Source of the DNA: Anabaena sp. UHCC 0187
GTDB lineage: Bacteria; Cyanobacteriota; Cyanobacteriia; Cyanobacteriales; Nostocaceae
Direction: 5' to 3'
Length of the DNA stretch: 45,627 nt
Assembly (NCBI RefSeq): GCF_009712035.1
Contig: NZ_VILB01000034.1
Coordinates: 1 to 45,627, forward strand
Of the stretch, positions 26,881-43,158 are shown one piece after another. Below the pieces are notes generated by a model. The model was given only the letters and a program-made list of their open reading frames with translations. It was not told where the DNA came from and searched no databases. Positions within the stretch are counted from its first letter, which is position 1; every line of letters starts with the position of its first letter. The translations under genes and the position numbers were made by a program.

Positions 26881-27132
26881 TTTCTTTTTTGACTAAACGT
26901 GGCAAGTCTCTCACTATTTCTACCATCAACCAACTAGGTAAAGCATCTCCTTTTTCAGGTTCCGAAACAACCATTTGGGCAATTTCAAAGCTGATAGCCG
27001 CTAAATCTTTGAGTAGTCCTTTGGCGCGATGAGCTAAGTCTTTATGACTACCTGTAATTGCTTGACGTTCTTGGGGTAATTCTTTGATGAGTTGAGCGCG
27101 GAATGATTGAGCTAAAAAATAGAGGACATCTC

Positions 27133-29065
27133 TAGTGTGTTAATTTTGACAGGTAAACCAGGGATTTCCTTCATGCAGAAAGTGTGATAAAAAAAAGAAT
27201 GCCTAAAAGCCCATAAAAAGGTTTTACGGAAACCAAACAAGCAGAATGAAGGTAATAGGGGAATGGAAGGATTTAAAAGTTCAGAAAGCCGATTAGTCCG
27301 GCTATTTCAAAAAGGTCGGGAACAGTGGAGAAAAAGAGCCGCAGAAAAACAGAAAAAAATGCGAGGAATGGAAATCAAGATCAGAGACTTAAGTGCAAGT
27401 CGAGACCTTTGGAAATCGAAAGCACTATCAGCACAACAGCAAAAAGAGCAGTTGGAACAAGAATTAGAAAATTTAAAAAAAAACTGAATTTGACAAATTA
27501 AAAAAACAAAATAATCATGTAACCGAATTAAGAAATCAAGAGCTAGAAGAGTTAAGACCCAAAGGGCATAGTTATTTAGTTTGTGTCATAGAAACAGCAA
27601 TTAAATTCTTAATAACGGGCTTAAATAGCCTGAGAGGGATTGAAAAAAATTTTCAAATATTAACAGAACATTGGATATTTTCAACACCTAATTTTAATAC
27701 GATACGACAATGGTCATTACGATTGGGATTGTATGAGTTTAATCGTAAAAAAGAATATCGGGAGGATTGGATATTTATTTTAGATATGACCATAGAGTTA
27801 GGAGCAGCCAAATGTTTAGTTGTTTTAGGTATATCTCAAGAAAAATTTACCCGAATTGTTAAGGAAGAGGTGAGAAGTTTACAACATGAAGATGTCGAAG
27901 TCCTCAGTTTAGAAATCATGGATAAATCACCTGGTACGGTGATATTAGAAAAGTTAAAAAAATTAGCAGAATGTGTAGGAACACCTGTACAAATAATATC
28001 AGACTGGGGCAGTGATATCAAGAAAGGAATAAATTTATATAAAGAAGAGAATCCGGGAGTTATTCTTACTTATGATATTACCCATAAAATGGCTAATCTC
28101 CTTAAAAAAGAGCTATTACCAGATGAGAACTTTAAAACCTTTCTGCGACAATGCAGCTTGACTCGTCAAAAAGTTCAGCAGACAAAATTATATTTTCTTA
28201 TCCCTCCTAAACAAAGAACTAAGGCTCGTTATCATAACGTTGATGTTTTGATAGAATGGGCAATAAAAGTCATAGAATATGAAAAACACCAAGATTTTTC
28301 TCAAATTAGCACTACCTATAATTTAGACGATAAAGCACTATTTTTACTAAGCTTTACTTTGGATGTAGATATTTTAAATATTCTCAAAAATCTCACACCA
28401 TTCGTTTATAAAAACCGTCAGGAATTTACTGAAGCTCTTATGAAACATTTAGGAAAAGAATTGTGCGTTGTTCATGGAGAAATTATTTGTCAACATTCTG
28501 ATTTAGGACGGAGAAGTTTTTATCATAAATTTGGTTGGCTCTTTAATTATGAACAAGATCTTGATACGTATACCGAAATATTTACTCAAATTCATTCTGT
28601 GCAAAAACAACTAAAAACTCAAGGTTTACATTCTGAATCTCTAAAAGAATGGTTAAAAACTATCTCCATTGATTCTCTGACACCAAAAGGACAAAAATTT
28701 CATGAAAAAATGATTGCATATTTAACATTTGAAACTAATCAAATTCCGGTAGGTCAAATTCTACTTGGTACTAGTGATATTGTTGAATCCCTCTTCGGTA
28801 AATATAAATTCTTTGCAGCTAGACGACCTCTTAAAGATATTGGTGCTAGTATTTTATTGATTCCTCTCTTTACGCTCAAAATTACCACAAGTTCCGTAAA
28901 ACAGGCAATGGAATCTATTCGTTTTATAGATGTTATTTCTTGGACTGAATCTATTTTTGGTTCTTCCATGCTCTCCCAAAGACGAAACCTTAAATTCGCG
29001 AATATTTCTGACACAGAACCTGCATGAAGTCTTATGGGTAAAGGATTCACAGAATTAACACACTA
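27133..29065 (+). mobile_element. Insertion sequence, 1,933 bp, 9-bp target duplication, in moxR
   Basis: The ends TAGTGTGTTAATT and its inverse are bordered by GGACATCTC at 27124-27132 and 29066-29074. TTCATGCAG occurs about 35-45 bases inside each end. It carries one transposase in two frames. The host moxR gene reads through once the IS is removed, so the borders are exact. Family not assigned: the transposase matches a cyanobacterial DDE-type group I recall but cannot name with certainty. Confidence 0.9.
27263..29027 (+). CDS. Transposase of the IS in moxR, two reading frames
   Basis: ATG 27263 (MEGFKSSESRLVRLFQKGRE) encodes a 74-residue basic, coiled-coil domain ending at TGA after an A9 run (27475-27483). 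The main domain continues in another frame from EFDKLKKQNNHVTELRNQEL through DWIFILDMTIELGAAKCLVV (first Asp), VQIISDWGSDIKKGINLYKE (second Asp) and LLGTSDIVESLFGKYKFFAA (Glu) to 29027. This gives a DDE layout over about 588 residues if fused. Slippage by +1/-2 on the A9 run could fuse the two parts, as in several IS families; a simple inactivating indel is the alternative. No other damage is seen. Confidence 0.75.
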
Positions 29066-29228
29066 GGACATCTCTATCTTCTGGGAGATGTGGCCAGGTA
29101 ATTTCACCTTTAAGAATTGCTGTGAGTTGGTATTTGCTTTTAATTTGTTTGATAAAACCTTTGAATTGGGTGCCATGATGGGGAGAAAGACACCCCATAG
29201 CGAGAACTTCTAGCCAATGATCTGTGAG

Positions 29229-29257
29229 GCGATAGCGAAGCGCTCCGCAGGAATCGC
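29229..29257. repeat. Palindromic dispersed repeat, subfamily A, in moxR
   Basis: A 29-bp unit differing from the 25400 copy by one base (CTCCGCAGG for CTCCGTAGG). It is read in a different frame from that copy, giving GDSCGALRYRL in the MoxR protein, between conserved segments. Confidence 0.9.
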
Positions 29258-30281
29258 CATATTCATGAAGGGTATCACTTAACATATGCCAAGAGCGAGG
29301 AGTGGAAAAAGGTTCTTCATGTTTAGGAGGTTGACTCCATAGATGATCTGGACAAGTTTGAATATATTCAATTACCCAAGGATGAATATCATGATTTTTT
29401 GCCCAATCTAACCAGTCTCGATGGGAAACTTTTAAATGAACATGAACCATACGATTTAGCAAAGGTGAAGACATGGGTTTCACAATTGCACTATCTTGAG
29501 CGCGATTACCCGCACCAATGACAATTGAATCTTTGGGGAGATGATATTCACCAATTCTGCGTTCATGAATCAGGCTATAAAATGCTTTCTGTACTTCATG
29601 AGAACAAGCGTTAAGTTCATCCAAAAACAGACAATAGGGTTCTTCTCGGGCAATCATTCTGGGTGGGCAGAAGCGACTTGTTCCATCTATAATCTGCGGC
29701 ACACCAATTAAGTCTTCTGGTGCTAGTTGACTACCCAGGAGTGAAACGCAAGGTATTCCCACTTCCGCCGCAAATGCTTCTACTAACGATGATTTACCGA
29801 TTCCTGGCGCTCCCCAAATAAATACGGGTCGCACTACTGCTACATTCAGCAGAAATTCTGAGAGTTGTTTTTGGGTGACTGTAATTGCTGGGTTCATTCT
29901 TAACTCACGAAAACTGCTGTTAATTAACCCCAATTTGGGGATTATTTTAAATTCGCTTTATTATTGATCTAACTCTAACAATACCTTTAGCAAAATCCTG
30001 AAATCCTATTGATATCGTAACAGTTTTATTGGTTTTGAGACCTATATTTAGCAAGTTTGCGAAGGTATTGCTCTAAAAATAAAAATTCTAACCTGCTTTT
30101 TTCACAAGTCCGTGATTACACTTCTTATAATCTTTACCAAAAAAAGGGAACTCTTAACTCTTCAGTGGAAACAGAAAGTATCCTGTTCTGTGTTCTCTAA
30201 AACACTCATTTGCACCAGTTTAAAGTTCAGTCAAAAGAAAGATGTTTTTGAGATGCGTAGCCCTAAAAAAACGGCAGTGCT

Positions 30282-30326
30282 GATAGCCTGCGTGGCGTAT
30301 CCCTGCGGGAGCCGGAGGCATCAGCC
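30282..30326. repeat. Palindromic dispersed repeat, subfamily C
   Basis: The segment contains GCCTGCGTGGCGTATCCCTG then CGGGAGCCGGAGGCATCAGCC, with GATAGCC/GGC and TCCCTGCGGGA inverted parts. It is of the G+C-rich palindromic small-repeat class common in Nostocales, distinct from subfamilies A and B. Confidence 0.6.
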
Positions 30327-30372
30327 ATATTGAGGTATGAAATTCGCAAATTGAACCTTTAAAACTCTTATA

Positions 30373-30396
30373 CCTTTGCGTCTTTGCGCCTTTGCG
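30373..30396. repeat. Octamer tract (CCTTTGCG/TCTTTGCG/CCTTTGCG)
   Basis: Three 8-base units, the middle one differing in its first base, followed by TGA. This is a recognisable cyanobacterial intergenic repeat type; function unknown. Confidence 0.7.
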
Positions 30397-30452
30397 TGAA
30401 ACTAAAATTCATACCCTTAATCAGCAACGCCAAAAAACAGTGTCAATATTTC

Positions 30453-30482
30453 AAACTCATGTTTAAAAACATGAGTTTTTCC
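30453..30482 (+). terminator. Terminator-like hairpin
   Basis: AAACTCATGTTT pairs perfectly with AAACATGAGTTT across a two-base AA loop and is followed by TT CC. It would act on plus-strand transcripts; there is no gene immediately upstream on that strand, so it may be a relic or part of a repeat. Confidence 0.4.
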
Positions 30483-30909
30483 TGTTTCCCGTTCCCTCTC
30501 AACCAGAATATGGTTTGGGAATTTTTAACAGGTTATTTTTTGATGCTGTGTGAAAAACTGGAATCTAAACTTTATCAGGCTTTTAAAATTGTGGGGAGAA
30601 ATCCGAGAGTTCACCTCGCACCCTTACCTCTTGTTGAAAATCCCATTTCTTCGTTCAGTATTTCACTACCTTGAGACGCAAATGCACATCCGCTTTTCTC
30701 AATGCTACGCTGATCAGTAAACCAAAAAGTTTTTCCCAAAGAGCGGTTTTTACGGAGTGCTGACGCTATTGATACAGACGCAGCAAGCATTACCAACAAA
30801 AGACGATAGACATTTATGTGCTATATAACACCAGATATATAATAAATAGTTATAGTAATTTGCACTGGGTCAAAATATGAAATGATGAACGTAGTGTGTA
30901 GCATATTGG

Positions 30910-31341
30910 GTGAAAAAATTGACTGTTTCATCTCTAACAAAAGCCAAGCAGGGGGAGTCTACAGAAGAACTCGTTTTAACCGACTCAGAAACCCTTGATC
31001 AAGTTATTCAGTGTTTAGTAGAGAATTTTTCCATTACAACTCAAGGAGCCTGTGACCAAAAAACTTTATTCGAGATTATGGTCAAAGCAGCCAGCACTGG
31101 AGATAGTATTGAAAACACAGCTAAATTGTTAAAAAATATTCCGACAGCTAATGATATTAGATATCATCTCAATAAAATTAATAATTTTGAGGAATTAGAA
31201 GCGCAAATAAATCAAGCATTAAAAAGTCGAATTCCTTTAGGATTAAAAAAGGGGTGTTTGAAAATAGCGATTGATTTAAATTTAATTTGTTATTATGGTA
31301 AACCAACATCATCAGAATTTGTGACTTGCACCATAAAATAA
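30910..31341 (+). pseudogene. N-terminal fragment of an ISH3-like transposase
   Basis: GTG 30910 begins KKLTVSSLTKAKQGESTEEL, followed by KAASTGDSIENTAKLL, IRYHLNKINNFEELEAQINQ and LKIAIDLNLICYYGKPTSSE (first Asp region). This is the N-terminal third of a transposase I recall as ISH3-like. The frame ends abruptly with VTCTIK at 31341, before the composite element, so the catalytic remainder is missing. A transposase C-terminal scrap lies at 37340-37568, but whether it is the same copy is unknown. Confidence 0.6.
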
Positions 31342-31434
31342 GCTTTTAGCTCGCTTTATGCTTCAGGAAGTAGGTATTCATTTTATGCTTCTCTCCTCAT
31401 TAAAGTAGAGAACTAATTTTTCCCATGTATTACA

Positions 31435-31739
31435 GGGGTACAGCCGGGATATCTGCAAAATGGGACATGATGTAAAGTTTTGTAAATTTAATTTTTCAAA
31501 ACTCCTGATTTACGGTTGTTTCAGCCTCCTCCTAAACTTGCTTATTCAAATGAAAACATCCCCAAAAAGAGTCATTTATGGGCAAGTTTGAGAGGCTGAA
31601 CCGCGTAAAAAGTTGATTTTAGTGTGCAAAAGTTGAATGTTTCTTTACCATTTTCGGGCAAGTTAGTAAATCACTAAATTTGTTTCTGCAACATTTATTT
31701 ACAACGTGTCCCATTTTACCCTTATCCCAGCTAGACCCC
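31435..31739 (+). repeat. Tn3-derived miniature element (TIME), left copy
   Basis: Its own imperfect terminal inverted repeats start GGGGTACAGCCGGGATA and GGGGTCTAGCTGGGATA and share AAAATGGGACA and TGTAAA further in. Internally TTTCAGCCTC...AAACTTGC and its inverted counterpart GCAAGTTTGAGAGGCTGAA surround the centre, a possible resolution site. No coding sequence. Confidence 0.85.
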
Positions 31740-31828
31740 TAAATCGCACGCGAACCACTTCTCCTTTTCCACATCCCGTGAAAAGTCAGAATTGGCTTTT
31801 ACCTGTATATCTTTAACCCGAACTCAGA

Positions 31829-33355
31829 TTAAAGAACATTTGAAAAAAAGCGGATTCCTGGAGTAAACATATACTCGCCCCCCGTTGCTACTACCCAACC
31901 ACCCGGAATTGGCAAGTCAAACCTATTAGTGCCATTTACCAAAGAAATTTTAGTATTACGTGCAGTACTGATGATTGGATCTACACCTCCATCAGCATGG
32001 GGCTTATTTGCTTCGTTTACCCAGTCATTCATTAAAAACTCGAACTGGTTAACGATTGATGTTTGGAATGCAACGAACAAAAGACCTCTCTCAGCTTGAG
32101 GTTGATCTATTTCTGGGCCAAAGGTAATACCGCGTCGAAGGAGTAACTTCTGAAAAGTTCGTTCCTTTGAACCAATATCTGTGGCATCATCCCTGGGGTT
32201 GACCTTGCGAATGTGTGCTGCGAAAGGACAAATTAGTCCGTTTGGATCGGGTAAGTTGAGCGGATATGGATCGTTCGGTAACGATACGGTCGTTGCTTCA
32301 GTAAAAGTGAAATAGTTCTCACCTAAGTTTTGTTCTCCACGATCAACATTGGGATCGCGCATTACTGGCCATCCAGATGCCCATCGACCGACAAGCAACG
32401 CACCAAGCCGCTCTGGAGTGAGTCCTGGATCAAAACCATTTTGACGTAGAGTTTCAGATGCTTCAGCAAGGAATGTACGAAACGCTTGCACGTCTTGGGA
32501 TAATCTCCGATAGACTAAGAACGAGCCATTCACTGCCCAAGCAGGTCCAGGAGGCTCAGAGTTTGGACGACTCGACTCTGGCTCATCACGGTTTTGTCTC
32601 AAGTAGCCAAACAAGAAATGACCTGGCCATACTAGAGGACGACCAGGTGCAGCAAATCTACTGCGGTAGATATCGAATGCTGAATCTTCTGGCCATGTGC
32701 GTGGCTCGATAAAATCATCTGGTGCGGTGGATCTGCGCCCTCTAATTGCTGGATGCGAAATGCCATCCTTAAAACCGAAGTGCTCATGCCCAGACAGTTT
32801 GCCGGGTCGAACTCGACCTCGATCAACGTGAATTAGCTGTAGTCCCTGTTGCTGTGCTGAGGTGATAAGTTCCTCTTCATATCTCACCGCCCAATCAAAA
32901 TCATCAGTTGCGAGAATGAGAAGTACATCTGGACGACGAAAACCAGCCCCAAATATCCAATTTTCTGGCGCGCCTGGTTCACCACTGCCCCGAGGAGGGT
33001 CGCCAATGGAGGCGGCTCTCTCCTCAAGCCCTAGTTTGAAAGCTGGATCGTCGAACTTCTCAATACCTGGTACCCCAAGTTTCACTAGTCCTTGTGCTGA
33101 AATTGCACAGTTGAGAAACAAGAAGTCAAGATTGTTAGGTTCGTGTCCCAATTTTAAACGCATCGCCTTCCACATACTGTGAGCAGCAAGAACCTCTCTG
33201 GCTGTCCACAGCCGTGGAGCGAGTGACTTGAGCCACAGTCGTGCTGGCTCTGGATTAACAATTTGAAAGAACAGGAAGTGCTGGCTATCCTTCTTGAAGC
33301 CTGGCAGGACATTGCCTTGGATATCGTCAAAATCTAAGACTGGCTCTTCAAGCAT
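31829..33355 (-). CDS. DyP-type heme peroxidase
   Basis: A 508-residue protein opening with DFDDIQGNVLPGFKKDSQHF, the usual DyP start. It has the GxxDG motif in FGFKDGISHP (distal catalytic Asp), PFAAHIRKVNPRD (proximal heme-ligand His and following Arg), and LLRRGITFG (distal Arg region). There is no twin-arginine signal, so it is probably cytoplasmic or needs another carrier. DyPs oxidise dyes and phenols with H2O2; the natural substrate is unknown. The ATG overlaps the upstream stop as TAATG, so the two genes are tightly coupled. Base composition is visibly more G+C-rich than the flanking DNA, consistent with import on the composite element. Confidence 0.93.
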   Translation of the reverse strand: MLEEPVLDFDDIQGNVLPGFKKDSQHFLFFQIVNPEPARLWLKSLAPRLWTAREVLAAHSMWKAMRLKLGHEPNNLDFLFLNCAISAQGLVKLGVPGIEKFDDPAFKLGLEERAASIGDPPRGSGEPGAPENWIFGAGFRRPDVLLILATDDFDWAVRYEEELITSAQQQGLQLIHVDRGRVRPGKLSGHEHFGFKDGISHPAIRGRRSTAPDDFIEPRTWPEDSAFDIYRSRFAAPGRPLVWPGHFLFGYLRQNRDEPESSRPNSEPPGPAWAVNGSFLVYRRLSQDVQAFRTFLAEASETLRQNGFDPGLTPERLGALLVGRWASGWPVMRDPNVDRGEQNLGENYFTFTEATTVSLPNDPYPLNLPDPNGLICPFAAHIRKVNPRDDATDIGSKERTFQKLLLRRGITFGPEIDQPQAERGLLFVAFQTSIVNQFEFLMNDWVNEANKPHADGGVDPIISTARNTKISLVNGTNRFDLPIPGGWVVATGGEYMFTPGIRFFSNVL

Positions 33356-34584
33356 TACATCTCTCCACGTGTTCTGTTTGTGTTCATGCGGCTAGGCATA
33401 CCACTAAACGCAGTTACTGCACTTGAAGGAGTTACAGCCACCAGAGTTGGTAATGGAAATGGAGATGTACCCGTGCAACCAATCGCTCGCGGCAAGGGAA
33501 TTTGTTGTGGCTCACTTACTAAAACTCCGACACGCACATTGATACGACCTGCAATCTGGGCACCAAAATCAATTTGCTCACCGCCAATTTTTATATCCGA
33601 AACTGTGTAGTTCTTGCTTTCAGGTACTGAGTACACAGCGCGAACAATATAGGATTTATTTGGATCGGCATCCTGTGAGCCTCGTAATACGGTCCAGAAT
33701 GTATCGGCTAAAGTTCCATCAGGAGTTTCCCAGCCATTCCAATCAACATCACTCATATACAATCCAACTGGATTTTCAATAGTAATGAAGCGATTTTCCC
33801 TCGAAAACTTGTTGATGGCATCTCCAATACGCGGATCACTCTGACGTGCTTCATCACCATACCGGCCACAGCGAATTAGTCCTTGTGCATCTGTAATTGG
33901 GTTACCAAGACCATTAATTCGCAAGATACAAGACCGGGACACAATGTTCACCTGTGCACCAAGCGTGTTGTTTGGTTGTTGCATATGTACGGCAAATTCG
34001 TTGTTATAACGGTTGTACCAGTCATATTCACCACGGCTGTCAACTAAATCATCAATTGTAATTGATTGAATCCCAGTGATCTTGCGATAGACATCTACTA
34101 ATAGATCGCGTGACTCCTGTGAAGTATAAAACATGAAATTATAATATTCTGGAGGCTCACTTGTGAAGATAACTTCTATAATCTTGTTGTCAGCGTTACG
34201 TTTGACAATCCACTCGCAGTATTCATCTTGAATTCGGGTGATAGTAGATGGGTCTCCAGGAAATTCTTGCCGTTCATCCAGATAGGAATATTTTTCTTTT
34301 GTATTGTTGAATTGCTCATCAAAACTTGTTGGAAGTGCTGACCAAATAACATTCTTAATTTCTGAAGGGGACAAAATAGGCATTGATGCTGGATTGTATA
34401 CGCGCAAATCACTGTCAGATCTTCCCCATGTTTGCAGTTCTTCCAAAGCTGAACGTACTCTATCATTTGGTTTTCCATAAAGATGGGTTTCATACAAATC
34501 ATTAATGAATAAACCCCATGAGTCCTTTAAACCAGGAACACTTTCAAAATCAGTCAATTTTGCGGTTGGCTCGAATACCCACAT
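33355..34584 (-). CDS. Unknown protein coupled to the DyP peroxidase
   Basis: I start it at ATG 34584 (MWVFEPTAKLTDFESVPGLK), with an alternative 30 bases upstream; about 409 residues. Conserved-looking blocks include IQDEYCEWIVKR, FTSEPPEYYNFMFY, NNTLGAQVNIVSR, LIRCGRYGDEARQSDPRIGD and ENPVGLYMSDVDWNGW. I recall actinobacterial hypothetical proteins with the same blocks, but no named family. The C-terminal ~50 residues are proline/serine-rich and likely disordered. No heme, flavin or metal signature is certain, though the several conserved Glu, Arg and Trp residues suggest an enzyme. The TAATG overlap with the DyP gene implies joint function. Confidence 0.8.
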   Translation of the reverse strand: MWVFEPTAKLTDFESVPGLKDSWGLFINDLYETHLYGKPNDRVRSALEELQTWGRSDSDLRVYNPASMPILSPSEIKNVIWSALPTSFDEQFNNTKEKYSYLDERQEFPGDPSTITRIQDEYCEWIVKRNADNKIIEVIFTSEPPEYYNFMFYTSQESRDLLVDVYRKITGIQSITIDDLVDSRGEYDWYNRYNNEFAVHMQQPNNTLGAQVNIVSRSCILRINGLGNPITDAQGLIRCGRYGDEARQSDPRIGDAINKFSRENRFITIENPVGLYMSDVDWNGWETPDGTLADTFWTVLRGSQDADPNKSYIVRAVYSVPESKNYTVSDIKIGGEQIDFGAQIAGRINVRVGVLVSEPQQIPLPRAIGCTGTSPFPLPTLVAVTPSSAVTAFSGMPSRMNTNRTRGEM

Positions 34585-34983
34585 TTTCAATGCTCCTTTA
34601 GATCTGTTGAACAAGACGAATTACAATGCTAAGAAAATTAATTAAATAAAATTGTCACATCTTTTAATGTTTACTCAGTTAATAACAATCTCATCTTTAA
34701 GGTAAGAGGTACATTTTTGCAGCATAAACAAGACTTAAACCCATACAGGACAAAGAAATACACCGAAGACTCAAAAATGCTTTAAATCCAAATCGATCGT
34801 AAGAACAGCATTTAATTGCATATTAGCAGCATTACTAAATTTACACTAGTAGTCAAGCCTAAGAAAATCTAAAATTTATAGGGGAGCAACGCGATTTTGT
34901 GAAGTCATGGTTTAATTCTCAATTACCACGGGTTATTCTCAATAAATAGGTCTTGATTTTCCCATTTTCATCTCTTTTAGGTA

Positions 34984-35012
34984 GCGATTCCTACGGAGCG
35001 CTTCGCTATCGC
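34984..35012. repeat. Palindromic dispersed repeat, subfamily A
   Basis: An exact copy, opposite orientation, of the 25400 unit (GCGATTCCTACGGAGCGC...). It lies in the 34615-35113 intergenic stretch inside the composite element; the rest of that stretch is AT-rich with no gene, probably the promoter side of the DyP operon. Confidence 0.9.
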
Positions 35013-35113
35013 TAATTATCGAGGTGAGATATATCACCAATTTTCAGCACCTCACCAAATCGCGTTGCTCCCAATTTATAGTGTACAACTTGGCATAAAT
35101 AGAGGTTATTTTA

Positions 35114-35418
35114 GGGGTCTAGCCGGGATAAGGGTAAAATGGGACACGTTGTAAATAAATGTTGCAGAAACAAATTTAGTAATTTACTAACTTGCCCGAA
35201 AATGGTAAAGAAACATTCAACTTTTGCACACTAAAATCAACTTTTTACGCGGTTCAGCCTCTCAAACTTGCCCATAAATGACTCTTTTTGGGGATGTTTT
35301 CATTTGAATAAGCAAGTTTAGGAGGAGGCTGAAACAACCGTAAATCAGGAGTTTTGAAAAATTAAATTTACAAAACTTTACATCATGTCCCATTTTGCAG
35401 ATATCCCGGCTGTACCCC
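35114..35418 (-). repeat. Tn3-derived miniature element (TIME), right copy
   Basis: Inverted copy of 31435-31739 with two differences over 305 bp (C/T near the AAAT(C/T)ACTA and A/G in CCC(A/G)GCTAG). The near identity implies recent duplication or homogenisation. Confidence 0.85.
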
Positions 35419-35423
35419 TTACA

Positions 35424-36087
35424 TGGGAAAAACGTCAAATTGACGGTGTATTACATGGGAATGTTGTTGTGCCGAATCATCCCTCAATATGGGTTATAGA
35501 AACACCATTGTTTTTTGAGAGCAGTTCATTGCAATAAAAGATGATAAGCGTGTCTTTTCCTTTATTTAGCAACAGTTTTGGATTGCTACTACATAAGACG
35601 AGATTGATGATTACTAATGTTTCTGAAGCATAACATGGTTACTTTGAACCATATCTTGGTATTAAAGTTTATAATTGTGCTGTTTCTTGAGGGTTATTTA
35701 CTTCTACCTTTGTTCGACAGAGTTCTTAAAACTCAGGCTTATCTTATGGTGCAAAAAATCTACTCTGGCTCATTATTTGATGCAAAGTTTTATATTGCTA
35801 TTAGTTGAAAAGCTTAATTTGGCATTACTTATGGCTCATGTTATGGTTCACAATTTGGCTCAAATTATAGTTAAAGTCACAAATATCAAGTTGTTGAAAG
35901 CATTTATATTCCATCTGGTTAGCGTCAAGAAATTATTACCCAGATAGTCATAAGTAATTATTATCTATATGATATCTACTGGTCAGAACACCGAGATTTA
36001 AAGAGCATCTTAGGCTACAAAATACTTGGCATATAGCCTCAGTGTTTTATAGGAATCGCTCTTTGGGAAAAACTTTTTGGTTTACTG
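35424..36087. other. Decayed gene-poor stretch
   Basis: About 660 bp without a supported gene. Open frames at 35617-35947 are hydrophobic but have no ribosome binding site, no family text and overlap each other in different frames. Scraps such as TYGSCYGSQFGSNYS suggest a degenerate coding region. At about 36055-36085 a 30-base block (CGCTCTTTGGGAAAAACTTT...) repeats, inverted, a block at 30715-30745. Confidence 0.5.
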
Positions 36088-36321
36088 TCTATCTCAGAAG
36101 TAGGTCATTTTATCACATCTCTGAGACGTTCATTTAAGGATAGTGGCCAAATTTTAGTAACTTCTCATAATCCTGAAGCAATTAGAAAATTCTCCAATGA
36201 AAACACCTTTGTTCTGGATAGAAAAAGTCACTTAGAACCAACTTTAATTAGATTGCTTAGTGATATACCTGTTACTGGGGATTTGATTAATTCTTTGATT
36301 TGTGGTGATATAGAATTATGA
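36088..36321 (+). pseudogene. C-terminal fragment of an AAA ATPase (OLD/AAA_15-like)
   Basis: The text ISEVGHFITSLRRSFKDSGQ, ILVTSHNPEAIRKFSNENTF and PVTGDLINSLICGDIEL is the His-switch (SHNPE) and C-terminal end of an ABC-like AAA ATPase. The P-loop and everything before are gone, replaced by repeat sequence at 36055-36085. The TGA overlaps the next ATG as ATGA. The original pair would be an ATPase plus the LPEDDANRQI protein. Confidence 0.7.
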
Positions 36322-36422
36322 GTATAAATAAGAATAAACCACATCTGTTAATTTTACCTGAAGATGATGCTAATCGTCAGATTGTTAATGGATTTATTCA
36401 AAATTTGAATGTGAATAATCGG
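36318..36422 (+). pseudogene. N-terminal fragment of the ATPase partner (TOPRIM-like)
   Basis: ATG 36318 gives MSINKNKPHLLILPEDDANR QIVNGFIQNLNVNNR, then the text changes character. ILPEDDANRQIVNGF recalls the start of proteins encoded after AAA_15/21 ATPases in cyanobacteria that I believe carry a TOPRIM-like acidic core (first Glu in LPEDD). The catalytic DxD is missing. The frame continues open to 36662 but over DNA that is antisense to yoeB and seems unrelated. The TOPRIM assignment is inference. Confidence 0.45.
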
Positions 36423-36606
36423 CTTGAATCACAAATTGATAAAATTTGGGATAGGGGGGTTGAGTTTTGTAATGTATCTCAGTCAAATCCTTTGTCAACA
36501 ACCTTAAGATATCATCAGCTTCACCTAAGAGTTCCTGATCTCCAGGTAAATTTCCTAACCATTGCTGGATTTGTTCTTGGAACCAGACAATTCCCAAGTT
36601 TTGATT

Positions 36607-36930
36607 TTAATTTGATTCATAATGATAACGAGCTTGTAAAAAATAAACTTTATTTTGTGTGACTTTATAAACCAAACGATGTTCTAAATCAATGCGTCGT
36701 GACCAAGTATCAGGATCAATATATTTAAGAGGTTCAGGTTTACCTAAGCCTGTAAACGGTTGACCGTCAAGAATATCCGCTACTAAATCTAATATCTTAT
36801 CCCCTTTTTTTCTATCATGATTATACCACCAAGCCAAATCTGCTTTAAAATCAGGACTGAAAGCAGGAAAATAACCAGATAATTCTTTTTCTTCATTATG
36901 AGTATCTGGCTTTTTTTTCTTACTACTCAA
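36607..36930 (-). CDS. yoeB: YoeB-family toxin
   Basis: A 107-residue protein whose C-terminal 85 residues are YoeB: FSPDFKADLAWWYNHDRKKG, FTGLGKPEPLKY, DTWSRRIDLEHRLVYKV and the ending QARYHYESN. The E(H)RLVY and Y-H-Y ends include the usual catalytic Glu, Arg and C-terminal His-Tyr. YoeB is a ribosome-dependent mRNA endonuclease. The first ~22 residues (lysine/glutamate-rich) are an extension relative to the family; a later start is possible. It overlaps yefM by 8 bp. Confidence 0.88.
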   Translation of the reverse strand: MSSKKKKPDTHNEEKELSGYFPAFSPDFKADLAWWYNHDRKKGDKILDLVADILDGQPFTGLGKPEPLKYIDPDTWSRRIDLEHRLVYKVTQNKVYFLQARYHYESN

Positions 36931-37204
36931 TTCCTAACTCCTCTTTTAATTCAGCCAATGTTTGAGGAGTTTCCATTGCTGTTTGGGTCCATTCTAAAGC
37001 CCGAAATAAACGTTTAGCATTTTCAGGTGATCTTAATAAATAAACACACTCTAATAAACTGGAAAGTTCATCTTCTGCAATTAACGCCACATTTTTCTCA
37101 TTACGACGTTTAATTACTACAATTTCCCGTTGATCACACACCTGATCTAAGATAGTTGCTAAATTCAACCTTGCTTGAGAGTAAGTGGTTTCTTTGTTTA
37201 ACAT
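36923..37204 (-). CDS. yefM: YefM/Phd-family antitoxin
   Basis: Start set at ATG 37204 (MLNKETTYSQARLNLATILD) because the longer frame would begin inside the operator at 37221-37242. The N-terminal YSQARLNLATILDQV..REIVVIKRRN is the YefM DNA-binding half; the acidic C-terminus (LKEELGIE) binds YoeB. About 93 residues, normal. Autoregulation through the TGTACA site is expected. Confidence 0.9.
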   Translation of the reverse strand: MLNKETTYSQARLNLATILDQVCDQREIVVIKRRNEKNVALIAEDELSSLLECVYLLRSPENAKRLFRALEWTQTAMETPQTLAELKEELGIE

Positions 37205-37220
37205 TCTCTTTTTTAAGAAG

Positions 37221-37242
37221 TTGTACAAGTATATTGTACAAT
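37221..37242. promoter_or_regulatory. Probable YefM operator (paired TGTACA motifs)
   Basis: Two TGTACA hexamers (37222-37227 and 37235-37240), each within TTGTACAA, lie 13 bp apart centre to centre, 17 bp before the yefM ATG. In the Escherichia coli yefM-yoeB system the operator palindromes contain TGTACA cores about 12 bp apart, so this is a strong match to established regulation. Confidence 0.8.
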
Positions 37243-37250
37243 ATAACCCA

Positions 37251-37331
37251 TAGTATCACCGCCGGAAGTAATTTAGTTTGACTCAAATCAGTAAACGGGA
37301 AGGGTGCTAAAATCACAGACCCCAAGTACAA
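37251..37331 (-). pseudogene. N-terminal scrap of a MazF/PemK-type toxin
   Basis: The minus-strand frame LGSVILAPFPFTDLSQTKLL PAVIL matches the opening of PemK/MazF toxins ('GDIVLAPFPFTDLS..K.RPAVVL'). No ATG precedes it and it runs straight into the yefM operator, so only the first strand-rich segment survives. Confidence 0.6.
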
Positions 37332-37339
37332 TCCTGGGA

Positions 37340-37568
37340 ATGTATCGCTTGCTGATTCTTTCTTTAACTGCTTATCTTATAGCTCACTGGAGTTATTTGC
37401 TCCCCTCAGTTCCCATTACCACCGGATTGGGGTAAGGCTGCACAAACTGCTCTTGAATCACTTTTTCCCAAAATAGTTGTGTCTCTTATTTTACTGGATA
37501 TTCAACGATTAATTCCTCTCGCACGTAGTTTTGGTTTTGACATCTCTATTTCCAGGTGCAAGATGTGA
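37340..37568 (+). pseudogene. C-terminal scrap of a transposase
   Basis: ATG 37340 gives MYRLLILSLTAYLIAHWSYL, then after a one-base shift LPPDWGKAAQTALESLFPKI, VVSLILLDIQRLIPLARSFG and FDISISRCKM before TGA. This is the recurrent C-terminus of a cyanobacterial transposase family whose name I cannot fix. Frameshifted and lacking the catalytic domain. Confidence 0.5.
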
Positions 37569-37607
37569 GTATAGAGACATTCCATGGAATGTCTCTACAC
37601 CCAATAA

Positions 37608-38858
37608 CTAATCGTATCCACCAAACATAAACAGGGAAATCTGCTCGTCGGTACTGTTCATCAAAGCATGAAGATTACCACCTTTGAGCATGGCCATGTG
37701 TCCACTTTTGAGGGTACGGATTTCAAAACAGCGTTCTCTTTCTGGCATTTTACACCAGTCACCCACCACCATGAAACCTTGACCTTCCATCATGAAAAAC
37801 ACTTCTTGGTTATCACGATGGCGGTGTAAGCCAATACCACAATTAGAATTGAGTAAGTGTAAATCCATATAATCAACGGCAAAGAAGGGTTCAAAATCGT
37901 TACCGTGATTTTTGTTTCTAAAGGCGCTAAAGTTCCAAGAATTTAACTGGCGGCCTAATTCGTTTTTGCCAGTGTATTGTCCATAGTTAGACATTAAGTT
38001 GCGATATTCTAAGAAACCAATACCACCATGAGGGTTAGGACTGATGCCAGTTCCCAAGAAATTATCCCAACCCCGCATGATCATATTGAACTCGTAGTGA
38101 TAATTAGCACCATTTTGGGAATCCCAAAATTTTTCCGTAAAGTCTGCCCAGGCTAGTTCCACATGAAGGGGTAAGATAGGGTGCATGGTGTTGGTGGGCG
38201 CAACTTGTGTCATCAGACGGTCATTTAAACCTTCTCGATTGAAATCAGAGATGTTGCCATGTACTAAGTCCGTGCGTACCTGAAGTTCACCACGATCTAT
38301 AGAATTGCGGCCTTTGTCATCGAGTTGACTTCTCAAGTCATTACCAGGATAACCCCAAAACTCAACTTCATAGCGATCGCTTCGTTCATTGTAGGGGACA
38401 GTAATTAGCATTGGTGTAGCTACATCCCCAACCTTAACCCAGAGCTTGATTTTTTCTCCCAATTTGTTACCAGCAGCAACAGAAAGCTGAGAATCTGGGC
38501 CACCTCGATAGGAAATCCGCAAAAATGGCCCTGTCCAATCACCTACAGTTACCAAACCCCGGACAAGAAAGGTATCCGTACTGTAAAAGTCCTTGACATT
38601 TTGCTTTTGGAAATCTGTTTTATTATCCTGCTGGGTGGGGTCGAGAATATTAGCATCAGCACCTTGTGGCCCATAAAATACTAGAGATTGATAGGGAAAA
38701 AGATACTGTAATTGGTCAGTCAGGTAAAATTCTCTTTCTGCTGCTAATTGCGCTCTTTCGAGAAAGTTCAACAACTTCAGCAAGGGATTACCCCGATTAT
38801 ATTCTGGTGGGGTATTGGGGTCTACTTTGAAAATACTATCAGAATGAACAATAAACAT
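37608..38858 (-). CDS. Cupin protein A of the GMC/subunit-3 cluster
   Basis: A 416-residue protein in two parts. Residues ~90-205 form a beta-rich domain (FLVRGLVTVGDWTG, FLRISYRGG, IKLWVKVGD, DRYEVEFWGYPG, DDKGRNSIDRGEL) shared with cupin B. Residues ~345-415 are a cupin: GLHRHRDNQEVFFMMEGQG with H-x-H and Glu, VVGDW, and TLKSGHMAMLKGGNLHALMN (second motif with His). The central region is conserved-looking and contains FLGTGISPNPHGGIGFLEYR. It probably binds a divalent metal. Last gene of a four-gene co-oriented set, 30 bp after cupin B. The activity is unknown; sugar-processing isomerases and oxygenases use the same fold. Confidence 0.85.
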   Translation of the reverse strand: MFIVHSDSIFKVDPNTPPEYNRGNPLLKLLNFLERAQLAAEREFYLTDQLQYLFPYQSLVFYGPQGADANILDPTQQDNKTDFQKQNVKDFYSTDTFLVRGLVTVGDWTGPFLRISYRGGPDSQLSVAAGNKLGEKIKLWVKVGDVATPMLITVPYNERSDRYEVEFWGYPGNDLRSQLDDKGRNSIDRGELQVRTDLVHGNISDFNREGLNDRLMTQVAPTNTMHPILPLHVELAWADFTEKFWDSQNGANYHYEFNMIMRGWDNFLGTGISPNPHGGIGFLEYRNLMSNYGQYTGKNELGRQLNSWNFSAFRNKNHGNDFEPFFAVDYMDLHLLNSNCGIGLHRHRDNQEVFFMMEGQGFMVVGDWCKMPERERCFEIRTLKSGHMAMLKGGNLHALMNSTDEQISLFMFGGYD

Positions 38859-38888
38859 GACAAGTTGGTGAGAATTAGGTGGACAAGT

Positions 38889-40031
38889 CTAGTTGGTGTG
38901 ATACAAGAAAGCAACGAATTTGAGGGGTTTTGTCCCAGGGTTACGAATGCCGTGCATTCCCCCACTCTTGGTAAAAATCACACTCCCTGGTTTCACTGGT
39001 AGTTCCTTAAATTCCTTTTTTCCTAAGCCCATCACTTGACGTTCGACGGTCGGGTACTTCTCTGTGGCGGGGTCATCACCAACTCGCATATAAGCAATCC
39101 CTTCGCCCTCGGTAATGTAATACAGTTCCTCTGTCCCAATATGTTGGTGAGTACCTTCAACTATCCCAGGAGGAACGGTCACTTCATGGAAGAACACCAT
39201 TGAACCGCCAAGTTCTCGTTGCACAATCCAACGCATATCAATGATGTTGGTATCTGACTTATCTGGATTGTCACTATCCATCATGGCGTTGCGATATCGC
39301 ACTGGGGCAATATCTGGTGTTTGTAAGAACCAACCGCGTTGGAAATTAATCAGATAGTTGAGGTCAGAAATAGTATTTTGGGGTGAACTGGGATCTTGAG
39401 TGCGAGGTTCTTGATGCGATCGCGAATAGTCATTATCCCAAACAGCATCATTACTGCTAATTTGATAGCCAGAGGGTAAATTGCGATCGTTTTCCCGAAA
39501 CGCCAACTCTATCTTTGTCAAAGACTTAATATCTGCCAACGCTGGACTAAACGCCTTAACTCGCGTAATTGCCCCATTGCGTCCCATTTGATCCAAAACC
39601 TGAAAATCGTGGTAGCTACCAGCAGGAGGTTCTAGGGTTTCCCAAATCTCCACTTCGTAAGCATCAATCCAAGAGCAATAGGACAGTTTTACCGTTGCTT
39701 CTGCCTTCTTACTCTCATCCTCTGGCAACACCCTCACCCAAGCAATCAACTGATCCTTGAGCAAGCGTTTTTTCTCCCTTGTCTGTTCCACCAAGCGACT
39801 AGAACGATATTCTAAGCGGAGAAAATTGCTAAGAAACTTACCATCTAGATATACTTCACCCTTGAGAGCATTGATACCCAAATAGCTACGAACTTCGCGC
39901 ACATTATAACGGTAACGAGGGCTGCGGGTAGCGTTGAGATATTCGGCATGGTAAATCCGGTCAGGATAGAAGACAACCTTAAAAATGTCATTCCACGGAC
40001 TCGTAAAAATATCGTTAAATGCTGGGTCCAT
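38889..40031 (-). CDS. Cupin protein B of the GMC/subunit-3 cluster
   Basis: Start set at ATG 40031 (MDPAFNDIFTSPWNDIFKVV), 4 bp after the GMC stop; an upstream in-frame codon lies inside that gene. 380 residues. The beta-rich domain (~60-190: FLRLEYRSS, LIAWVRVLPED, DAYEVEIWETLEP, DQMGRNGAITR) parallels cupin A. The C-terminal cupin (~300-385) has EGTHQHIGTEELYYITEGEG and KPGSVIFTKSGGMHGIRNPG, giving H-x-H, Glu and His ligands. Metal-binding is likely; substrate unknown. The two cupins are diverged paralogues. Confidence 0.85.
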   Translation of the reverse strand: MDPAFNDIFTSPWNDIFKVVFYPDRIYHAEYLNATRSPRYRYNVREVRSYLGINALKGEVYLDGKFLSNFLRLEYRSSRLVEQTREKKRLLKDQLIAWVRVLPEDESKKAEATVKLSYCSWIDAYEVEIWETLEPPAGSYHDFQVLDQMGRNGAITRVKAFSPALADIKSLTKIELAFRENDRNLPSGYQISSNDAVWDNDYSRSHQEPRTQDPSSPQNTISDLNYLINFQRGWFLQTPDIAPVRYRNAMMDSDNPDKSDTNIIDMRWIVQRELGGSMVFFHEVTVPPGIVEGTHQHIGTEELYYITEGEGIAYMRVGDDPATEKYPTVERQVMGLGKKEFKELPVKPGSVIFTKSGGMHGIRNPGTKPLKFVAFLYHTN

Positions 40032-40035
40032 AATA

Positions 40036-41880
40036 CTAAAGCCTCTTGAGTAATTCGTCAGCGACACGGAAAGAATTGGCTTGAATCGTCAATGTCGGAT
40101 TAGCACCCCCTGATGTGGGCATAAAAGAGCCATCGGTTACGTAGAGATTATCAAAATCCCAAGTTCGACAATTCACATCTAATACTGAGTCTTGGCGATC
40201 AGTGCCGAATCTTGCACCACCGAGAATATGATTAGCAATCCGTGCTAGGGCGTTTTCTGCCATGTACACACCCCCAGATCCCAAGAATTCATAAGGGAAT
40301 TTGCGATCGCCTGACGCATTTTGTCCGTTATCTAAAACCTGTTTGCACATATCCGCCAGGGTATTCATCAGATACCTATCATGGCTGTGCCATTCTTTAA
40401 TAATGTAAGCAACCGAACGACCCCATTTATCCTTAATTGTCGGATGTAGTTCGATGCGATTTGTTTTCAGGGGTAATTGATTGGCCATAAAGCTGACAGA
40501 TAGACCTCTACCCATGTATTGATCCAGGAAATCTGCCAAACCTTGACCTGCCAATCCAGTGTTATTAATAAAGCCTTTCCAGAGAGTATCTAAATCTTGA
40601 CTACCCTGAGTACGTCCTAGAGATATGGGCAAAGCTTGGTCAGAGGTGTTGTTGTAGATTGCACCACCAGCCCACAGTCCCCGGCTTTTGAGAAAATCAT
40701 CCGTAGCGCAAGCATCCGTAGCCCAATCAGCATCTAAAGCCTGTGATTTATCGCTGCGAGTGGGCATTAGGGCGCTCGCACCACCAAAACAGTGAGTTAG
40801 AAAATACTTTCCTAAGAGGTCATTTTGATTGATCCGGCGATCGAATTCCGAACTCATCTGTGCAGACAATTTCAGTAACCGAATTGATTCAATTGCTGAA
40901 CAAGCCACAACAACAATTTTTCCCTGCACAAACCGAGTTTTCCCACTAGGGTCACGGTAAACCACTCGGCTAACTTTCGACCCTTCGCTTTCCAAATGAG
41001 TAACTACGCAGTTAGTGCGAATCTCAAAATTTGGTTGGTTAGCAATGGGACTGAGTAAAGATACCCAAGTATTTGATTTCAAACCTAGAGGACAACCAAA
41101 ACGATTCACATAACTGGTTTTAATCGTTTCTGGATCTTGGGGAGCTTTGCGTCCACTGGGTTCGTGGTCACGGGTAATCACCGCTAAAGGTGTCCGATAT
41201 GGCTTGATAGGTTTGTTACTGTTGAGTTGTTTACCAATCTGCTCCATACCCACCTTCGCATAGATACTAATAGGATTAGGCTCTAAAGGTGGTTGATACT
41301 TATCTCCACTAAATGGTTTCAGTTGGTTCTCGACAGTGCCGTTAAAGCCAACTAAATATTCAGCTTTCAAATAGTATGGCTCTAATTGTTGATAACTAAT
41401 CGGCCAATCACGGGCTTCCCTTTGAATATCGCCGTTGGGGTCTTCTTTGAGGTCATTACGTCCAGCATTAAAGCTTTGTAGGCGTAAATCGGTAGGTGTA
41501 AATCGCAGGGAAACACCACCATAAAGTTGAGTACCGCCACCGACAACTTGGGCTGTATAACCTTCAATTGTGGCTCGATCTTTACCATCAAAACCACGAT
41601 AAATATGTGGCTCGTCGTTAATATCTGGTTCAACGTGGCTAGAATAGAAAGCTTCGTTTTCGTTGGCTACTCCAGGAATACGAATCCGCTTTTCTGGTCC
41701 ATCAGCAAATAGTTCATCTCTTTTAAAATCACTTAACCCATTGGGGTTTTGATATTGGGGTTTAAACAAGGGGCCTTTTTCTAAAATCAATACTGATTTT
41801 CCGGCTTTGACTAAGGTGTGAGCAATAGGCGCACCACCACCACCACTACCAATAATTACGACATCAAATTGAGTTTCCAT
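40036..41880 (-). CDS. GMC-family flavin oxidoreductase
   Basis: A 614-residue flavoprotein. The N-terminal dinucleotide fold reads FDVVIIGSGGGGAPIAHTL then VLILEKG (Rossmann motif and acidic ribose contact). EGYTAQVVGGGTQLYGGVSL is the GMC signature near the flavin. The C-terminus has NHILGGARFGTD (usual H-x-x-G-T form), LYVTDGSFMPTSGGANPTLT and QANSFRVADELL. AGGAGA precedes the ATG. Homologues paired with a subunit-3 protein oxidise sugars, polyols or gluconate and pass electrons on; others are H2O2-forming oxidases. No signal peptide, so a cytoplasmic location is expected. It follows the subunit-3 gene by 204 bp. Confidence 0.93.
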   Translation of the reverse strand: METQFDVVIIGSGGGGAPIAHTLVKAGKSVLILEKGPLFKPQYQNPNGLSDFKRDELFADGPEKRIRIPGVANENEAFYSSHVEPDINDEPHIYRGFDGKDRATIEGYTAQVVGGGTQLYGGVSLRFTPTDLRLQSFNAGRNDLKEDPNGDIQREARDWPISYQQLEPYYLKAEYLVGFNGTVENQLKPFSGDKYQPPLEPNPISIYAKVGMEQIGKQLNSNKPIKPYRTPLAVITRDHEPSGRKAPQDPETIKTSYVNRFGCPLGLKSNTWVSLLSPIANQPNFEIRTNCVVTHLESEGSKVSRVVYRDPSGKTRFVQGKIVVVACSAIESIRLLKLSAQMSSEFDRRINQNDLLGKYFLTHCFGGASALMPTRSDKSQALDADWATDACATDDFLKSRGLWAGGAIYNNTSDQALPISLGRTQGSQDLDTLWKGFINNTGLAGQGLADFLDQYMGRGLSVSFMANQLPLKTNRIELHPTIKDKWGRSVAYIIKEWHSHDRYLMNTLADMCKQVLDNGQNASGDRKFPYEFLGSGGVYMAENALARIANHILGGARFGTDRQDSVLDVNCRTWDFDNLYVTDGSFMPTSGGANPTLTIQANSFRVADELLKRL

Positions 41881-42084
41881 TTATCTTCTCCTAGGGATAT
41901 TGATGAAAGGATAATCATGATTAATAATCTGCAAATTAATCTTAGGACTTATGCAGAAGTTAGTGAAAAACTAACCACTCCAGGCACAGATTTCACGGAG
42001 AAATGAGGGTTTGAGAGATATTTTGCATAAATCCTGAATCTGTTAATCCTGTGATCTGAAAATCCTGAATCCTTACAATTGTTA

Positions 42085-43158
42085 TTAGCCGCGATAATCG
42101 CTATTAATGCCGAGGGGTTGTTCTATAGCTTTGCGCCAATTAAACAAAGTTTCCCCTTTGTCATCTGTATATCTTTCAGCCAAATAAGCCCAACCTGTAC
42201 CGCCAACATTACCGCCATATTTAGGATGGGAAAAAGCACCTGTGTAGGTGTGGCGACGTAATAATTGCAGAAAATAACGAGGTTCTTGATATTGTTGATA
42301 GTTCCACCCATTAACTTGGTTATTTGCCATTTCGTTATACAGATCAATGTATAACTCTTTGGAAACATCTTGAGGATTAATGTAGGGATTTCTCTGGCGC
42401 AAAATTCTGTCCATTTGACCAAGACAAATTTTGTAATCAGTTAAGTGGTGATTTTCTTCCCTAGCTAAAATGTTGTCAATGTAATTGACTGCCCCTACGG
42501 ATTGATCTAGGCGATAAGCAAAGGCATATTGTACTTCTTTATCTTGTTTACCAAGATAATTGTATTGGCGGTTCAAGAAGTTCTCACCTTCAGCCGTGCG
42601 GAACGGTAAAATGTGATCTACTAAGCGAGTTAAAATTTCAAATTCCCAATCTTCAAAACTCAGAGGTTCTGTGCAGAGTTGGGTGAAAAATCTTGACCAG
42701 AATTGACCATTATCAAGTTGGGCGCGTTGAGGGTTAATGGGGTCAAGAATTGGTTGTCCATCCACAATAAATTTATAGGTATGAAATTGGGCTTTGGGAA
42801 CAACAATTGATAAGGCGTAGTATCCTGTTTCTTCGCCTAAAAATTTCACTGGTTTGAGGGGAATTGGTTCAAAGAGATGGGCAAATGTGCCAATAATACT
42901 AACATCTTTGGGAGGTGTGTTGCCTTGTTGTTGATAAACGAAAGTTACTAAGTTTGAGGAGTAGCTTTTAACAAAGTCTTTACCATCACTGTAACTATCA
43001 ATAATGGGAAATCGCCAAGCTTCAGCAATGCGTGAGCGAGGGTCATCGTCGGTTAATTGTCCAAAGTTATGGCGAGGATCTGTGTTAGACCTAGCTAAAA
43101 ATTTTGTGCATTGGTTTAACACATACTGATCATCGGTTGGGAAGATTTCTACAGCCAT
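42085..43158 (-). CDS. CBM48-like domain fused to gluconate 2-dehydrogenase subunit 3
   Basis: A 357-residue protein. Residues ~68-140 (VTFVYQQQGNTPPKDVSIIG TFAHLF, YYALSIVVPKAQFHTYKFIV, DGQPILDPINPQ) look like an early-set/CBM48-AMPK-type glycogen-binding fold. Residues ~168-357 (WEFEILTRLVDHILPFRTAE through YFLQLLRRHTYTGAFSHPKY GG and GTGWAYL) match subunit 3 of FAD-dependent gluconate/polyol dehydrogenases, which assists folding of the GMC subunit. There is no twin-arginine signal, unusual for classical subunit 3. AGGAGAT precedes the ATG. As first gene of the cluster it defines the GMC as a dehydrogenase-type complex. Confidence 0.85.
   Translation of the reverse strand: MAVEIFPTDDQYVLNQCTKFLARSNTDPRHNFGQLTDDDPRSRIAEAWRFPIIDSYSDGKDFVKSYSSNLVTFVYQQQGNTPPKDVSIIGTFAHLFEPIPLKPVKFLGEETGYYALSIVVPKAQFHTYKFIVDGQPILDPINPQRAQLDNGQFWSRFFTQLCTEPLSFEDWEFEILTRLVDHILPFRTAEGENFLNRQYNYLGKQDKEVQYAFAYRLDQSVGAVNYIDNILAREENHHLTDYKICLGQMDRILRQRNPYINPQDVSKELYIDLYNEMANNQVNGWNYQQYQEPRYFLQLLRRHTYTGAFSHPKYGGNVGGTGWAYLAERYTDDKGETLFNWRKAIEQPLGINSDYRG

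Follow-up and report, generated by a model that had tools for sequence, protein, structure and literature searches.

Composite elements bounded by two copies of a Tn3-derived inverted-repeat miniature element (TIME) are a known kind of element, termed TIME-COMPs. In Pseudomonas, TIME-COMP1 (2,469 bp, TIMEs inverted) and TIME-COMP2 (3,892 bp, TIMEs in direct orientation) moved into a trap plasmid; two TIMEs of 262 bp bound genes without a role in transposition (resolvase, DUF1652, rep or vapD), and AT-rich duplications of 5 bp flank the whole (PMC4133298). In Enterobacteriaceae, composites bounded by TIME244, IS101 or MITESen1 were recognised by duplications of 5 or 6 bp and by an ancestral site without the insertion, and their cargo is antibiotic resistance (PMC13367494). 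For composites of this form, mobilisation in trans was achieved experimentally in these bacteria (PMC13367494, PMC4133298). The present work concerns a 45,627-nt stretch of Anabaena sp. UHCC 0187 (contig NZ_VILB01000034.1, forward strand), called the window in full, and within it a unit of 3,984 bp that carries a gene for a DyP-type peroxidase and a partner gene between two inverted TIMEs. The unit shares with the Pseudomonas composites the paired TIMEs, the non-transposition cargo and the AT-rich 5-bp duplication, and with the enterobacterial ones the kind of evidence; it differs from the former in TIME sequence, TIME length, cargo genes and host group and in being known from sequence alone, and from the latter in its cargo. 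It is very probably a TIME-COMP that was inserted as one block by the TnpA of a related autonomous transposon. A transposase-less composite of two Tn3-derived mini-elements in a cyanobacterium had been proposed in an initial annotation, and the results given below support this proposal.

Structure of the unit and its empty target site

An inverted pair of 310 nt (99% complementary) was detected in the window. It contains two TIMEs of 305 bp in opposite orientation, which are identical at 303 of 305 positions and differ at TIME positions 238 and 295 only. The ends of each copy form imperfect inverted repeats of 42 bp (79%) that start with GGGG. The pair flanks a cargo of 3,374 bp, and the interval 31430-35423 comprises the unit together with both target duplications. 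The features are as follows.

30713..31319 and 35881..36087: parts of a broken ISH3-family insertion sequence (name from annotation)
31319..31429, no strand: target, left part of the miniature Tn7-like element X
31430..31434, no strand: left copy of the target duplication, TTACA, present once in the empty site of plasmid pANA01
31435..31739, plus: left TIME, 305 bp, no open reading frame of at least 70 amino acids
31435..31476, plus: outer terminal inverted repeat of the left TIME, 42 bp, 39/42 identical to both ends of the G014:C85 transposon
31552..31667, plus: putative resolution site of the left TIME (TIME positions 118-233), function inferred
31573-31588 and 31649-31664: direct repeats within this putative site, spaced 76 bp
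31698..31739, minus: inner terminal inverted repeat of the left TIME
31740..35113, no strand: cargo, 3,374 bp
31829..33355, minus: DyP-type peroxidase gene, 508 amino acids (PF21105, PF20628 and TIGR01413 above cut-offs; motifs GFKDG and AHIRKVNPR)
33355..34614, minus: partner gene, 419 amino acids from a TTG start or 409 from the ATG at 34584, no known family
34712..35113, no strand: non-coding right part of the cargo, partly repeats, which were matched in 15/15 same-genus genomes searched
35114..35418, minus: right TIME, inverted, 303/305 identical to the left TIME
35186..35301, minus: putative resolution site of the right TIME (positions 118-233), opposed to the left one and placed by symmetry and core matches
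35419..35423, no strand: right copy of the target duplication, TTACA
35424..35881, no strand: target, right part of element X

TTACA flanks the pair at its outer borders only; next to the inner ends stand TAAAT and TTTTA, so that no inner duplication exists. This arrangement, including the two mismatches, had been described in the initial annotation and was confirmed to the base. From base composition alone, an outer match of 5 bp has a chance expectation of 0.0016. The list of open reading frames and a Pfam search revealed no transposition gene in the interior. A composite transposon bounded by insertion sequences was also considered and rejected, as neither border TIME has an open reading frame of at least 70 amino acids. 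With a length within the 50-500 bp range of TIMEs, no transposase gene and an outer end that agrees at 39 of 42 positions with the ends of a transposon encoding a PF01526 TnpA, each copy qualifies as a TIME, and two copies of one TIME, a 5-bp outer duplication and an interior free of transposition genes make the unit a TIME-COMP.

The two flanks, joined with one TTACA, were compared with the collected loci (L035 onward; L080, L085, L100 and L128 were excluded because they contain the window itself). The uninterrupted target occurs at six separate sites, on plasmid pANA01 of Anabaena sp. 90, in G012:C1 and G013:C84 and, more diverged, in G050:C211, G071:C234 and contig C18 of the own genome (G, C and L denote genomes, contigs and loci). 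The pANA01 junction is 97.8% identical over 90 nt and has one TTACA, those in the same-genus genomes G012 and G013 are 89.1% identical over 101 nt with one ATACA at the aligned place, and the junction in C18 is 80% identical over 90 nt. The target lies within TTTTTCCCATGTATTACATGGGAAAAA, a palindrome of 13 bp around a centre of 1 nt, both in the joined sequence and in pANA01. Because the target is uninterrupted in pANA01 and in two same-genus genomes, the 3,984-bp block appears to have entered as one unit, and the uninterrupted site in relatives removes chance as an explanation of the TTACA repeat.

An empty site had been named beforehand as the test for joint movement of both copies and the intervening 3.4 kb. 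Its discovery at 89-98% identity in pANA01, G012 and G013, together with the outer-only duplication and the transposons with matching ends described below, bears out the joint movement. The cases that the initial annotation had set against its own reading were looked for as well: the genes without TIMEs were not found at this locus, and the copies lack duplications of their own. The claim of recent movement stands on other grounds than those first given. Near identity of the TIMEs is no proof by itself, since copies can be homogenised; better support comes from the right flank (35419-35881), which is 99.1% identical to the empty pANA01 site over 463 bp. This identity suggests that the insertion is young relative to the split from the pANA01 lineage, unless the flank was exchanged by recombination.

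The target itself is mobile DNA. Element X (31319-31434 and 35419-35881) has the ends TGTGACTT and AAGTCACA, and long versions with large internal frames occur in G067, G050 and G071 (L115, L116, L117). In G067, the one genome in which these frames were submitted to Pfam, they match models of the Tn7 TnsA N-terminal domain, the Mu-transposase C-terminal domain and TniB above cut-off, for which reason X resembles a Tn7-like transposon with an internal deletion. X is in turn inserted in the broken ISH3-family insertion sequence, whose copy here lacks about 733 bp compared with a longer one in G012. Three mobile elements are thus nested: the unit in X and X in the ISH3-family insertion sequence. 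A diverged TIME (71%) is present in G012 about 0.5 kb from an empty copy of X (L121; G012:C1 4778185-4779497).

Origin of the transposase and rival explanations

The own genome, a draft of 57 contigs, contains no match to the Tn3 transposase family PF01526, and hence none lies between the TIME borders; the unit would therefore need a transposase in trans. Such a match occurs in 49 of 119 relatives. A Tn3 transposase with matching terminal repeats, which the initial annotation had suggested searching for, was found in the same genus: on the 4,966-bp contig G014:C85 each end agrees with the outer end of the TIME at 39 of 42 positions, and between the ends lie genes for a Tn3 transposase (PF01526, NF033527), a 294-amino-acid tyrosine recombinase (PF00589) and a helix-turn-helix protein. 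For the copies of the G014 transposon, no 5-bp duplications could be matched up, as the contigs end within the repeat. A related transposon of 4,849 bp in G498:C5 is flanked by the duplication TTATA, has ends that agree with the TIME at 38/42 and 37/42 positions and contains one frame of 1,001 codons whose product is 91% identical to the G014 TnpA. A third one, in G523:C145 (4,889 bp, duplication ATGTT), has ends agreeing at 34/42 and 35/42 positions and a transposase split over two frames. These transposons are referred to as lineage A. In the combination of tnpA, a tyrosine recombinase gene and GGGG ends, G014:C85 presumably resembles the Tn4430-type Tn3 transposons with their tyrosine recombinase TnpI.

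DNA matching the TIME, or at least its ends, is present in 56 of the 119 relatives (57 of 120 including the own genome), with many of the matches confined to the ends. Among 72,556 plasmid records, 34 gave a match, and coverage of the TIME reached 80% in 13 of them. A relative of 90.5% identity is found on pANA02, a plasmid of Anabaena sp. 90. Eighteen copies, including the two of the window, align over most of their length, and conservation is among the highest in the inner part of the end repeats. Apart from the window's two, no full copy occurs in the own genome, whose other matches measure 55 and 38 nt. At L051 in G063, a solo TIME is flanked by the duplication TATTA. Other arrangements were observed as well. 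In G040:C165 (L042), TIMEs at 1605-1911 and 3398-3704 form a second inverted pair of the same polarity, only 71% alike and with outer 5 bp that are not shared; it encloses one frame of 480 codons, of which a stretch of 462 amino acids gave no Pfam match. In G067:C2 (L045), a full and a partial TIME (3255-3551 and 8149-8316) in opposite orientation flank about 4.6 kb, whose frames, judged by eye, resemble an insertion sequence transposase, an alpha/beta hydrolase, a short-chain dehydrogenase and an FAD reductase. In G005:C1 (L043), a 90.5% TIME at 1625-1929 lies directly next to a Tn3 tnpA fragment, at its 3' end.

In view of the above, mobilisation in trans can be envisaged as follows. The TnpA of a related autonomous Tn3-family transposon would act on the two outermost 42-bp ends and insert the whole block at TTACA inside element X, the 5-bp stagger of the cut leading to duplication of TTACA. 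Tn3-family elements transpose replicatively through cointegrates, and the same route would be expected here. The cointegrate could be resolved at the putative site present in each TIME or by homologous recombination. Since the TIMEs are inverted, the two putative resolution sites are opposed, which predicts that inversion of the cargo is allowed.

Several points weigh against this proposal. No transposition of the unit has been observed, and no second copy of it was found among the 119 relatives or in the plasmid records. Since the own genome is a draft in 57 contigs, the absence of tnpA from it is likely but not proven. The target in G012 and G013 differs by a 1-nt gap and by ATACA in place of TTACA. 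Finally, the solo TIMEs at L037, L038, L043, L054 and L058 have no 5-bp duplication, so that duplications made by TIMEs appear to be often lost or never made.

Four other explanations can be considered. In the first, which is improbable, a solo TIME was inserted at TTACA and the cassette with a second, inverted TIME was added later by recombination with a TIME-bearing molecule. Solo TIMEs do occur in relatives, and near identity over 305 bp suffices in principle for recombination. However, simple integration at a TIME would lead to direct rather than inverted copies, and an adjacent inversion by TIME transposition would give differing outer flanks, whereas the flanks found here are the halves of one empty site; moreover, a solo TIME is absent from the own genome. 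Independent insertion of two TIMEs on either side of a resident cassette is very improbable. The pair in G040:C165 illustrates that chance pairs may occur, but in the unit neither copy has its own duplication, the outer pair has one, and the empty site lacks the cassette. Decay of a full-size Tn3-family transposon that lost tnpA and kept ends of 305 bp is hardly credible: internally deleted transposons with TIME-like ends exist, for example in G051:C131, but each border of the unit is a complete mini-element with an inner repeat, its relatives occur singly elsewhere, and the Pfam search found no remnant of a Tn3 transposase between the borders. An assembly error in which the nearly identical 305-bp repeats of this draft joined unrelated contigs can be set aside almost entirely, since a false join would not yield flanks that fit one empty site with a duplication on both sides.

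A putative resolution site in the TIME core

Some TIMEs of Enterobacteriaceae hold a resolution site of the Tn21/Tn3 TnpR type (PMC13367494), whereas the core match of the TIME studied here lies next to the gene for a tyrosine recombinase. In G062:C10 (L141), the segment that separates such a gene (PF00589) from tnpA is matched by positions 118-233 of the TIME, at 38.5 bits with the TIME profile and 41.6 bits with a core-only profile; 20 block-shuffles of 30 loci gave scores of at most 9.3. A search that did not use the core, covering 30 loci around relatives of the L141 recombinase, gave one core match above 8 bits, L141 itself. A DNA search with L141:640-1300 gave matches in 26 of the 217 family genomes, in many of them restricted to the tnpA part. 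Eight matching places were examined, near-identical ones in G509 and G457 being left out, and the core was present between the recombinase gene and tnpA in nine of the nine loci (L141 and L299-L306, from G062, G433, G508, G484, G513, G414 and G496), with 32-51 bits. These nine loci are not independent: the query held the core, and six of the eight fetched places are in genomes that match it at 94-96%, the other two at 80-81%. The position beside the recombinase gene, paired direct repeats 76 bp apart and conserved blocks within the core make it likely that the TIME core is a resolution site. L141-type recombinases (limit 1e-15) and the L141 stretch itself gave no match in the own genome.

The transposons whose ends fit the TIME best do not have this core. 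L040, the same-genus element with the best-fitting ends, was tried as holder of the core too and failed, as only its ends match, and none of the five lineage-A loci (L040, L041, L307-L309) gave a core match. The window's TIME therefore seems to join lineage-A-like ends to the core of a second transposon type (type B). At the ends taken for four of the B-type elements (L299, L301, L302, L306), no clean 5-bp duplication was seen. It may tentatively be proposed, though with considerable doubt, that the TIME borrows from two transposons: its ends from the group with recombinases of about 300 amino acids, which gave no core match, and its core from the resolution site of the group with tyrosine recombinases of 206-213 amino acids. 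The recombinase of one transposon could then resolve cointegrates and flip the cargo after the transposase of another had moved the composite. On the other hand, ends and gene order do not track strictly: L306 combines the core with ends of the GGGG form, and L307, whose ends read GGGT, lacks the core. A single, as yet undiscovered parent transposon with both TIME-like ends and the core may therefore exist.

Cargo, its origin and significance

The DyP protein is related to D-type DyPs in the PDB, and its motifs GFKDG (position 194) and AHIRKVNPR (position 380) are what we take to be the GXXDG and proximal-histidine motifs of DyP-type peroxidases. The partner gene overlaps the start of the DyP gene by one base. 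Profile searches assigned its product to no Pfam or NCBIfam family above cut-off and found no relative in the PDB. Of the 'oxidative enzyme pair' named in the initial annotation, the peroxidase thus holds by family, whereas the partner belongs to no known family.

The pair also occurs at other loci, without TIMEs in the stretches covered, namely in Nostoc sp. UHCC 0302 (84.6% identity at the DNA level), G270 (88.3%) and G203 (79.2%). A scan of GTDB genomes gave 184 stretches encoding a relative of the partner, the best 80 of which were analysed. A DyP relative is encoded in the covered flank of 13 of these 80, including eight of the ten closest; in the other two of the ten, the stretch stops 116 and 220 bp beyond the match. 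No TIME match was obtained in any of the 80. Among the 119 relatives, cassette DNA was found only in G052 (2.8 kb, without TIMEs) and G083 (32 bp), and in none of the 15 same-genus genomes. The right inner flank consists partly of the repeats listed above, and G004 has a 99% identical match to 98 bp of it. Because this flank has repeats found in all 15 same-genus genomes and the cassette has no match there, the composite was probably assembled in this genus around an imported gene pair. The G+C contents are 47.6% for the DyP gene, 41.4% for the partner gene and 38.2% for the window. The earlier description of the unit as spreading reaches further than the data, as no second copy was found; no plasmid record covers 80% of 31200-35700, although records of the own genome may be excluded from that set.

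The insertion is adjoined at 36607-37228 by a gene pair for a YoeB-like toxin and a Phd/YefM antitoxin. Genes that run in one direction at 37608-43158 encode a 416-amino-acid protein of no family, a cupin, a GMC oxidoreductase and a protein with a gluconate 2-dehydrogenase subunit 3 domain, possibly an oxidative gene cluster. An Rfam search of 27000-40000 gave no match, and promoter- and terminator-like sites were near or below the level of shuffled sequence.

Miniature elements are not new to Anabaena. For Anabaena sp. 90, 147 miniature inverted-repeat transposable elements (MITEs) were listed and classed as type II, without a matching insertion sequence, and that paper does not mention 'Tn3' (PMC3542288); Anabaena MITEs are also mentioned in a review (PMC10969869). 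The two TIME-COMP papers do not mention cyanobacteria (PMC13367494, PMC4133298), and no cyanobacterial TIME-COMP was found among the open-licence papers listed for Tn3 and cyanobacteria, which is no proof of absence.

The present case adds to this known kind of element one from the order of Anabaena and Nostoc, together with a TIME family, a new host group and a core that is found beside a tyrosine recombinase gene. The unit would represent a route by which an enzyme operon can enter a genome and leave no transposase gene behind. As the border TIMEs encode none, annotation that looks for transposase genes would miss such a unit. With an empty site, a TIME family in relatives and full-size transposons with matching ends at hand, mobilisation in trans becomes directly testable in cyanobacteria.

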